A stretch of 42,281 nt of DNA, from contig JAGYLD010000014.1 of assembly GCA_018401355.1 (NCBI GenBank), positions 1 to 42,281 of the forward strand, given 5' to 3'. A model generated the notes under the pieces. The model was not told the origin of the DNA and made no database searches. It saw only the letters and a list, made by a program, of their open reading frames with translations. This document shows, piece by piece, positions 1,662 through 4,357 of the stretch. The stretch comes from Bacteroidales bacterium (GTDB taxonomy: Bacteria; Bacteroidota; Bacteroidia; Bacteroidales; B18-G4). Every line of letters begins with the position of its first letter. Position 1 is the stretch's first letter. The translations under genes and the position numbers were made by a program.

Positions 1662-1683
1662 AATTACGAATATTTTCGTAATT
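1662..1683. promoter_or_regulatory. Operator palindrome 1 of the BlaI-type repressor
   Basis: A perfect inverted repeat with 9-base arms (AATTACGAA, four bases, TTCGTAATT). Its core TACGAA-N4-TTCGTA is shared with two more copies downstream. It lies just upstream of the candidate promoter. BlaI/MecI repressors bind dyads of this size as dimers, so binding by the adjacent gene product is the natural inference. Confidence 0.7.
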
Positions 1684-1688
1684 AGTAC

Positions 1689-1719
1689 TTGCATTTACGA
1701 AGTAGTTCGTATATATTTG
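1689..1719 (+). promoter_or_regulatory. Promoter of the BlaI/M56 operon
   Basis: TTG at 1689-1691, a 20-base spacer, then TATATTTG at 1712-1719, a perfect match to the Bacteroidota TAnnTTTG -7 element with the -33 TTG at the expected distance. Operator 2 fills the spacer and operator 3 starts at the base after the -7 box. Transcription should begin near 1725, giving a leader of about 28 bases. Confidence 0.7.
1696..1711. promoter_or_regulatory. Operator palindrome 2, inside the promoter spacer
   Basis: TACGAA-GTAG-TTCGTA, the same 6-base arms and 4-base centre as operator 1. It lies wholly between the -33 TTG and the -7 TATATTTG, so a bound dimer would cover the face needed by RNA polymerase. 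Confidence 0.7.
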
Positions 1720-1735
1720 TACGAAGTTATTCGTA
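1720..1735. promoter_or_regulatory. Operator palindrome 3, over the transcription start
   Basis: TACGAA-GTTA-TTCGTA, third copy of the dyad. It starts directly after the -7 box and should cover the transcription start. Its centre is 24 bases from that of operator 2, which in turn is 31 bases from operator 1. Confidence 0.7.
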
Positions 1736-1752: not shown

Positions 1753-2145
1753 ATGAATAAGGACCGAAAAAAAATCCAACCAACAGATTCTGAGCTGGAG
1801 ATCCTGAACATTCTCTGGGATAGTGGTCCCAGCACGGTCAGGGCTATTAACGATCAGTTGAATATCAGGCGGGAGGTAGGTTATACTACTACCCTGAAGA
1901 TTATGCAGATCATGCATGAAAAAGGGATGCTAACCCGTGAGCAGGACGGAAGAACACATATTTATACTCCAGTTTTGAATGAAAAGGAGATACAGGGCAA
2001 ATTGATAGACAGGTTGCTTGAAACTGCTTTTGGTGGCTCTGCTTCAAAGATGATCATGCAGGCACTGGGCAATCATAATTCAAGTGCGGAAGAACTGGCT
2101 GAAATAAAAAAACTCATTAAAAGACTGGAGGATCAGGAGAAATGA
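1753..2145 (+). CDS. blaI: BlaI/MecI/CopY-family transcriptional repressor
   Basis: 130 residues, close to the usual length for the family. The N-terminal winged helix (about residues 11-75) contains SELEILNILWDSGPSTVRAI and GYTTTLKIMQIMHEKGMLTR, the conserved helix-turn-helix and recognition region. The C-terminal part is the dimerisation and protease-sensitive region. The family represses its own operon and is inactivated by cleavage triggered by an M56 partner, which here is encoded directly downstream with a 4-base ATGA overlap. Three TACGAA-N4-TTCGTA dyads overlap the promoter, strongly implying autorepression. No true beta-lactamase gene is adjacent, so the inducing signal need not be a beta-lactam. 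Confidence 0.92.
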   Translation: MNKDRKKIQPTDSELEILNILWDSGPSTVRAINDQLNIRREVGYTTTLKIMQIMHEKGMLTREQDGRTHIYTPVLNEKEIQGKLIDRLLETAFGGSASKMIMQALGNHNSSAEELAEIKKLIKRLEDQEK

Positions 2146-4295
2146 ATTCATTGAGTAGTTTATTATCGGCAGAATGGACACAGGCACTTGGCTGGACACT
2201 TGTCCATTCTATCTGGCAGGGAGCCATCATTGCCATCCTCCTTGCAATAGCTATGGTTTTTTTACAAAGGTTCTCTGCACGCCTCAGGTATATGATATAC
2301 TGCTTGTCGCTCCTTGTTTTATTCGGAGCTTCAATAGTAACCTTTTTTAAGGTATACGAAAGACCAATAGTAAGCACAAATTATAATCAGGGACAGCAGG
2401 TTACTGATGAAAAGCCAGTTTTGATCATACTTGCTGATGCCGTTCTGCGCCAACATACAACCAGCGGGATAGAAGAATACTGGAATGCTTTTAGCGATTA
2501 TGTCAAAAGGAATATGCCTTTGCTTGTAGGGGTCTGGCTTATTGGTCTTATGATTTTTCTCTTGAGGCTCCTGGGTTCACTGGCCTATACTCAAAGATTG
2601 AGATATTATAAGGTATACAGAACGGAGGAGAAATGGGAACATCTGTTGAAAAAGATAAACCATAGGATGGGTGTGAATAAGTCCGTTCAATTGATGCAAT
2701 CTGCAGCCATACAGGTGCCGGTTGCGCTGGGTTTCTTCAGGCCTGTAATTTTGGTACCTGTTGGATTTTTTATGCAGCTGCCAGCAGACCAGATAGAAAC
2801 CGTTTTCATGCATGAACTTGCCCACATTAAACGCAAAGATTATTTTATTAACCTTATTCAATCAGCAGTTGAAGCCATTTTCTTTTATCATCCTGCAGTA
2901 TGGTGGATTTCAGGAAACATCAGAATGGAAAGGGAACACATTTCAGATGATATTGCGATTTTATACTGTAAGAATCCGATATTGTATGCAAATGCCCTGG
3001 CGGCAGTCCAGGAAATGAAACTGCAAAATACTGTGTTGGCTCCTGCTTTGACCAGAAATAAATACTCATTGTTGAACCGAATACAAAGAATGATGAAAAG
3101 ACCAAGATTAATTCCAAATTATGCTGAAGGTTTTATCTCAGTGATGATAATATTGATAACAATAGCAGCCATTTCTGCTACTGCAGCCATTTCTTTTAAA
3201 GCTGATGAAGCTCTTGTGAACATGATGGATTTTAAATCAGTGAACACAGAGTCTATTAATGATCTTTCAGCTGGAAATATTGAAACCGAGTTCATAGAAA
3301 TAGAAAAAAGGGATGTAGAGCCCATACGGATAAGTGCAAAGCGCCCTGAATTAACGGATATCACAAGTACAAATTTATTATTGTCAGCGACGTTATTTCC
3401 GGATTCATCGGCTGTTACTGATTCACTTAAAAAGTTACAACAGGAGAAAATTGAAAAAGCAAGACAATACATGGAGCAGGCTGAGCAGGCAAGGTTGGAA
3501 TACAGGATAAAACTTAAGCAAGCCAGAGAGCAACAAAAGCAAATTCAACAGGAATTTAGTGCCCAGCTTGAAGAGAAATTAAAGGCCAACCAGGAAAACT
3601 ATAAAAAGTTTCTGGATGAATACAGGAAGTCATTGCAAGGAATTTATTCTGACAGTAACATAACAAATATTGTGATCAGAGATGATGAAAGTGGTAATAT
3701 CATAGTCTATGGTGGTACGTCTCCTTTCAGGTTTGAAGCGAAAATGGGAACTGATTCAGGCCACACCTATAATTATGAATTCCATGATATTGTGCCTGAT
3801 GGTGAAGATTATTATTTCTGGACACCGGGAGATGAAATTATACCTGGATTTGAAAACCGTGTGTTTGTAGTTGATGAATTGGATTCCCTGGCAGACCATG
3901 ATATAGATATTTTTGTTGAACCAGATGATGCTATAATGGATGTCTATATGGATGCTCGCATCGATAAAGAAGCCAGGAGGGTTCAGGCTCATGCGGATAG
4001 GATTAGGGATGAAGTCCGGGATATACGCTTTGATGACAGAGTATGGGTCAAGCCTGACCGTAATATGCGGGGATACCTTTATGAAAGCAAACTGAACAGG
4101 ATTGTAAAGGATGAATTGGAAAATGACAGGCTGATCAAAAGACATGGCGATTATATCATCAAACTGGACAACAAAAGAATGTATATCAACGGGGAGAAGC
4201 AATCCCGCTCTGTTTATAAAAAGTATAGAAACCTGATTGAATCTTTTGAAGGAGAGGAAATGTCTGATGAATTCGAATTCAAAATGGTGCTCTGA
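2142..4295 (+). CDS. BlaR1-like M56 family membrane metallopeptidase with a long acidic/coiled-coil C-terminal region
   Basis: 717 residues. Membrane helices lie near residues 15-40, 48-68, 125-148 and 330-352. The zinc site HELAH is at 224-228, followed by the family signature around EREHISDD. This is the BlaR1/MecR1 protease module, which activates and leads to loss of the partner BlaI. The classical C-terminal penicillin-binding sensor domain is missing. After the last helix there are about 365 residues: a linker, a Lys/Glu/Gln-rich coiled coil (about 425-505), then an acidic region rich in Asp, Tyr and Arg. That part may be the sensor, with an unknown ligand. It is translationally coupled to the repressor gene and ends just before a strong terminator. 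Confidence 0.88.
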   Translation: MNSLSSLLSAEWTQALGWTLVHSIWQGAIIAILLAIAMVFLQRFSARLRYMIYCLSLLVLFGASIVTFFKVYERPIVSTNYNQGQQVTDEKPVLIILADAVLRQHTTSGIEEYWNAFSDYVKRNMPLLVGVWLIGLMIFLLRLLGSLAYTQRLRYYKVYRTEEKWEHLLKKINHRMGVNKSVQLMQSAAIQVPVALGFFRPVILVPVGFFMQLPADQIETVFMHELAHIKRKDYFINLIQSAVEAIFFYHPAVWWISGNIRMEREHISDDIAILYCKNPILYANALAAVQEMKLQNTVLAPALTRNKYSLLNRIQRMMKRPRLIPNYAEGFISVMIILITIAAISATAAISFKADEALVNMMDFKSVNTESINDLSAGNIETEFIEIEKRDVEPIRISAKRPELTDITSTNLLLSATLFPDSSAVTDSLKKLQQEKIEKARQYMEQAEQARLEYRIKLKQAREQQKQIQQEFSAQLEEKLKANQENYKKFLDEYRKSLQGIYSDSNITNIVIRDDESGNIIVYGGTSPFRFEAKMGTDSGHTYNYEFHDIVPDGEDYYFWTPGDEIIPGFENRVFVVDELDSLADHDIDIFVEPDDAIMDVYMDARIDKEARRVQAHADRIRDEVRDIRFDDRVWVKPDRNMRGYLYESKLNRIVKDELENDRLIKRHGDYIIKLDNKRMYINGEKQSRSVYKKYRNLIESFEGEEMSDEFEFKMVL

Positions 4296-4313
4296 ACTAA
4301 CTTGAAGTTTGAG

Positions 4314-4357
4314 AAGCTCTTATTTTCATAAATCATGAAAGTAAGAGCTTTTTTTTT
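4314..4357 (+). terminator. Strong intrinsic terminator of the BlaI/M56 operon
   Basis: A 16-base stem with one G-T pair (4314-4329 against 4335-4350), a 5-base loop (aaatc), and a T-run through 4357. It begins 18 bases after the M56 stop. An ATG at 4335 lies inside the right arm, so it is unlikely to be a translation start for the next reading frame. Confidence 0.9.

Follow-up and report, generated by a model that had tools for sequence, protein, structure and literature searches.

Three copies of a distinct operator word probably place a Bacteroidales BlaI/M56 operon under its own control

BlaI/M56 gene pairs are widespread in Bacteroidota and are known chiefly from β-lactam resistance in Gram-positives. 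In the 42,281-nucleotide stretch of Bacteroidales DNA analyzed here (the window; contig JAGYLD010000014.1, assembly GCA_018401355.1), such a pair is preceded by repeated copies of the palindrome TACGAA-N4-TTCGTA, which raises the question of whether the repressor shuts off its own operon through them. The initial annotation had proposed three operators around a perfect −33/−7 promoter, very tight autorepression by the adjacent BlaI protein, and a motif with which the rest of the regulon could be found. All three copies that it had listed, at 1665–1680, 1696–1711 and 1720–1735, proved to be exact. The features of the locus are as follows.

1665–1680, no strand assigned: predicted distal operator TACGAA-TATT-TTCGTA (TACGAATATTTTCGTA), exact match, 31 bp before the middle site
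1689–1691, plus strand: TTG, core of the −33 element, read from the sequence
1696–1711, no strand assigned: predicted middle operator TACGAA-GTAG-TTCGTA (TACGAAGTAGTTCGTA), exact match, last 16 bases of the −33/−7 spacer
1712–1719, plus strand: −7 box TATATTTG, directly 3′ of the middle operator
1720–1735, no strand assigned: predicted proximal operator TACGAA-GTTA-TTCGTA (TACGAAGTTATTCGTA), exact match, over the predicted transcription start
1753–2145, plus strand: BlaI-family repressor, 130 aa, recognition helix region GYTTTLKIMQIM, PF03965 E = 4.4e-27
2142–4295, plus strand: M56 (BlaR1-type) membrane metalloprotease, 717 aa, PF05569 E = 1.3e-33
4311–4353, plus strand: terminator-like stem-loop after both genes, 19-pair stem with a T tail

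The copies start 31 bp (distal to middle) and 24 bp (middle to proximal) apart, and the −7 box lies between the middle and proximal copies, directly abutting both; as had been noted, the proximal copy begins at the base after the box (1720, the box ending at 1719). The middle copy had been said to fill the 20-base spacer exactly, but the spacer (1692–1711) consists of CATT and the 16-base operator, which takes up only its last 16 bases. The B. fragilis promoter consensus given in the excerpt of PMC7366714 has TTTG near −33 and TAnnTTTG at −7. The word "perfect" applies to the −7 box only, because the window has CTTG at −33 where the published consensus has TTTG. Judging from the position of the −7 box, transcription would start at about 1723–1726, over the proximal operator. 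A symmetric putative operator that overlaps its own promoter is thus present at the blaI operon. Base composition predicts 0.0044 exact copies of the motif in the window versus the 3 observed. With up to two mismatches the window contains 4 matches, and 4 were reached in 3 of 100 shuffles; therefore, it is the exactness and the clustering that are improbable, not the loose motif.

The two genes behind this promoter carry family signatures. The repressor scores 95.2 bits against PF03965 (cut-off 22.6), which places it among the Penicillinase_R winged-helix proteins, and its PDB matches include chains of MecI and BlaI. By sequence alignment its helix positions T45–K49 correspond to MecI K43–T47, and GYTTTLK and a later QIM are invariant across 10 aligned orthologs. 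The start of the M56 gene overlaps the blaI stop by 4 bases. Its product keeps both zinc motifs of the gluzincins (H224EXXH228 and E265xxxD269); an alignment of 22 sequences shows no variation at H224, E225, H228, E265 and D269. The profile of the protease matches BlaR1 entries 8exs and 8exp in the PDB. At an E value of 0.001, Pfam finds only Peptidase_M56 and a weak M48 match in the 717-residue protein and no penicillin-binding domain, so β-lactam sensing is not indicated. A short C-terminal stretch of the protease (residues ∼650–710) matches the M56 partners of distant genomes, and the region preceding it is mostly without a match to those partners; the stretch is possibly a signal-sensing tail. 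Between 1350 and 4700, 6 terminator-like sites were observed versus 1.9 in shuffles. Beside the operon, on the minus strand at 2–769, lies a protein with curlin-associated repeats (PF07012, four stretches), a curli-like subunit that runs off the start of the window.

Our first survey covered 60 genomes, including that of the window. Close orthologs (E < 1e-30) occur in 10 of them, the window's genome among these, and all 10 have two or three copies of the motif upstream (≤2 mismatches). The motif was found upstream of none of 21 loci with weaker repressor matches (L026–L046); 16 of these have AACTA-N6-TAGTT (≤1 mismatch) upstream instead, and one, L046, is a paralog with a site of this type in the window's own genome. 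We then analyzed the best 80 of 581 relatives (L049–L128), picked by two peptide patterns. Most come from Bacteroidota and a few from Ignavibacteria, and two are metagenome-assembled genome (MAG) contigs under unexpected labels. These two, L059 (labelled Aminicenantes) and L064 (labelled Oligoflexales), have this repressor and operator set as well, and their labels may reflect either transfer or a binning error. One locus, L052, appears identical to the L019 contig, with which it shares length and sites; in both, the M56 reading frame has only 340 aa, and in L052 a 322-aa frame follows it after 30 bp, which may mark a split protein or a frame break.

Scanning 300 bp upstream of these 80 loci (less in L077 and L117) with up to two mismatches revealed the motif in front of the same BlaI subtype in 79 of them, with three sites in 48, two in 28 and one in 3; only L075 departs from this, its two operators standing in front of an additional first gene (L189). 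Exact sites number 103, in 62 loci, whereas 20 shuffles and the reversed pattern gave none; with up to two mismatches there are 197 sites, the shuffles averaging 2.2 and the reversed pattern giving 2. The ten core bases are nearly constant and the central bases free in 203 sites, a constancy that is partly an artefact of the two-mismatch cut-off. The full arrangement TTG-N4-[operator]-(−7 box)-[operator] is present in 63 of the 80 loci, and a third site frequently precedes it by 30 or 31 bp; a middle–proximal pair at 22–28 bp was not seen in the other 17. Of the 63 pairs, 62 have a TTG in the stretch from 10 to 3 nt ahead of the middle operator; the box directly after that operator matches the consensus at 5 or more of 6 bases in 54 (exact in 32) and is weak in 9, TAnnTTTG occurring at 0.2% of positions elsewhere. 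An M56 relative lies downstream of the repressor in 70 of the 80 loci, and a second search added two more (L085 and L101); four of the remaining eight end within 190 bases of the BlaI match, and in L067, L114, L120 and L121 no M56 relative was detected downstream. In 395 genomes of the phylum, 10 of 11 matches to the composite operator–promoter pattern, including that of the window, precede a BlaI gene. The 50 genomes of the first survey without a close ortholog contain 17 exact sites, in 7 genomes and none near another, and 50 matches to the reversed pattern (manual sum). Two of these genomes, G055 and G025, have 8 and 4 scattered exact copies; several in G055 share the centre TACGAACACCTTCGTA or its complement and look like a dispersed repeat, not operators.

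Because many relatives keep the word, its place and the kind of repressor, the three sites are very probably the repressor's self-control switch, that is, operators through which the BlaI-family protein encoded at 1753–2145 is predicted to shut off its own operon. We infer binding, repression, cooperativity, the start site and proteolytic relief as follows. A repressor dimer on the middle site, within the −33/−7 spacer, would exclude the sigma factor, and one bound to the proximal operator would mask the point where transcription begins. Lying some three helical turns ahead of the middle copy, the distal site may serve cooperativity or block upstream polymerase contacts. The operon would in this way turn itself off, and repression might be very tight, as first supposed. 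The cotranscribed M56 protease, once activated by an envelope signal, would cut or displace the repressor and so turn the operon on. In a variant of this scheme, which we regard as unlikely, the middle and proximal sites alone would repress and the distal site would be auxiliary or activating. The 28 loci with only two sites, some of which keep just the promoter pair, are consistent with such a division, but against it, 48 loci have three sites, and in 43 of 47 triples the distal site stands 30 or 31 bp ahead of the middle one.

Operator word and recognition helix were also compared. The agreement seen in the 80 loci is partly built in, because one of the search peptide patterns lies in the helix. 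We therefore used a helix-independent sample, a Pfam family search of 60 genomes of the class, from which 26 of 40 rows (E < 1e-20) were analyzed and 14 weak rows (E from 1e-6 to 8.5e-4) left out. All five YTTxLK repressors have TACGA-N6-TCGTA (≤1 mismatch) within 250 bp upstream, and none of the 21 repressors with other helices has it in that interval; of these 21, 11 have AACTA-N6-TAGTT (≤1 mismatch), 6 have TACANNTGTA and two have both. The association gives a Fisher p of 1.5e-5 (7.9e-5 leaving the window out), values that are rough because some rows are near-copies; the sample is small, with 5 YTTxLK proteins from 4 genomes and near-copies among the 21 others. We also built a tree of 94 proteins, taken from about half of the 80 loci, from the first survey and from the Pfam sample (bootstrap not fully settled). 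The 53 YTTxLK proteins in it all fall to one side of a branch supported at 100/100, and the operator label changes 3 times, owing to two mismatches, L022 and L075. Both were traced: L075 has its extra first gene behind two operators (L189), and the L022 row is a divergent paralog that shares an intergenic region. L022 holds at 1498–2415 a divergent pair of BlaI genes with two helix types and one common intergenic region.

With the whole module conserved and the recognition helix matched to the word in this helix-independent sample, autorepression by the adjacent BlaI protein is strongly supported as a prediction. That some different regulator binds the sites while the neighboring BlaI acts elsewhere is very improbable. 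The motif lacks the TACA/TGTA word that the excerpt of PMC7253601 gives for BlaI, MecI and CopY operators, but it accompanies the YTTxLK repressor, relatives with other helices have other words upstream, and it shares its 16-base width with the CopY operator, the 16-mer RNYKACANNTGTMRNY of the same excerpt (register from a manual alignment). That the palindromes are RNA hairpins in the leader, acting as an attenuator or stability element, can practically be dismissed: each copy could fold into a 6-base stem capped by a 4-base loop and the proximal one would be in the transcript, but the distal and middle copies precede the −7 box and would not be transcribed from this promoter, and the core is nearly invariant, without covariation.

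The locus thus reads as a BlaI/M56 autoregulatory circuit with an operator dialect of its own, and it can be set beside known systems. With staphylococcal BlaI/MecI–BlaR1/MecR1 it shares the BlaI-family winged helix of the repressor; the operators of staphylococcal BlaI/MecI lie at the promoter, as do the predicted ones in the window. The protease has, like BlaR1/MecR1, the gluzincin motifs HEXXH and ExxxD, as defined in the excerpt of PMC9834060. In contrast to the staphylococcal systems, the operator word is TACGAA-N4-TTCGTA, with no TACANNTGTA of the TACA/TGTA dyad type in the 250 bp upstream of blaI, the protease is without a C-terminal β-lactam-binding domain (Pfam), and the two-gene operon is without a β-lactamase gene. 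The staphylococcal repressor cleavage site, N101–F102, aligns with Q103–A104 of the window repressor (one pairwise alignment), and because these are the aligned residues, cleavage at the same bond is doubtful. The circuit would therefore work like BlaI–BlaR1 but misses two of its features, the operator word and the β-lactam sensor.

The CopY/CopR systems offer a second comparison. The excerpt of PMC7253601 describes two spaced 16-base dyads, with a mode of 26 bases apart, that are proposed to block a promoter element and the polymerase, and spaced 16-base dyads at a promoter are likewise found in the window. When the CopY operator is dyad-aligned by hand with TACGAANN of the window, the width, the centre and the K–A pair are shared, whereas the window core has A where CopY, as given there, has C; the core is TACGAA in the window and KACA in that excerpt. 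The partner gene encodes a protease here and a copper pump in CopY/CopR, and the Cys-X-Cys metal motif of CopY is lacking, as no cysteine was found in the translated window repressor. The other BlaI type, that of AACTA-N6-TAGTT and of the genome's own paralog (G000:C112, locus L046), shares the family and the dyad width, and the L046 sites lie near a TATATTTG box. It differs in its helix (AYNTVSTI versus GYTTTLK in the window repressor), in its operator word and in an upstream L046 site that does not abut the −7 box. Among the titles and abstracts listed we found no description of the motif for a Bacteroidota BlaI, which shows little.

The proposal that the motif would find the rest of the regulon yielded nothing in the window's own assembly and gained support in some relatives. 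The assembly (2.93 Mb, 83% complete) has 3 exact copies, all in this promoter; the relaxed core TACGA-N6-TCGTA gave no fourth site there, versus 11 matches for the reversed-pattern control, and the three one-mismatch sites were rejected as targets, all lying inside ORFs. Across 59 genomes with an ortholog, a manual count gave 122 exact sites, of which 87 belong to blaI operons and 35 do not. The reversed pattern gave 42, so that the off-operon number is not above control; we therefore did not take every such site as part of a regulon and kept only recurrent genes with a site at promoter position. Three identical Dyadobacter sites, inside a coding frame, were dropped.

Two groups of genes recur. 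FtsX/MacB permease genes in three genomes (a Bacteroidales MAG, Splendidivirga and a Marinilabiliales MAG; L149, L152 and L191) have an exact site 21–33 nt before the start codon, and the three permeases are 50–75% identical to each other. In 4 of 5 Hymenobacter genomes examined, an outer-membrane barrel gene lies behind operators that are placed >100 bp before it, around a −7-like box. The L174 barrel is OMP_b-brl_3, the L176 and L178 proteins are 60% and 62% identical to it over 417–430 residues, and the L260 protein has, by eye, a start similar to the L174 group, its first site carrying one mismatch. Both recurrences seem unlike chance and would represent second targets in some relatives. 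FtsX/MacB relatives in the window's own genome (5 of 7 examined) have no core site even at 2 mismatches, and across this genome and five others of its family 25 of 30 FtsX/MacB loci have no site, the other 5 showing one or two weak ones at 2 mismatches. A single site also precedes a PF00144 serine-hydrolase gene in Larkinella (16 bp) and in a Lewinellaceae MAG (2–23 nt, depending on the start codon); two cases are too few, and we make no claim for these hydrolases.

A wider reading, which we advance tentatively and consider somewhat short of probable, is that Bacteroidota and Ignavibacteria share an old envelope-stress switch, not linked to β-lactams, in which one BlaI subtype, using an operator word of its own, sits inside the spacer of its promoter. 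Exporters (FtsX/MacB permeases), outer-membrane barrels and possibly serine hydrolases would have come under this switch in individual lineages, and the recognition helix alone would predict the operator word family-wide. If the operator word can be read from the repressor helix, it supplies targets for experiments across dozens of genomes; that FtsX/MacB permeases and outer-membrane barrels recur as putative targets in relatives would direct the search for the signal to the envelope, and the compact operator–promoter module may offer a regulated promoter for this phylum.
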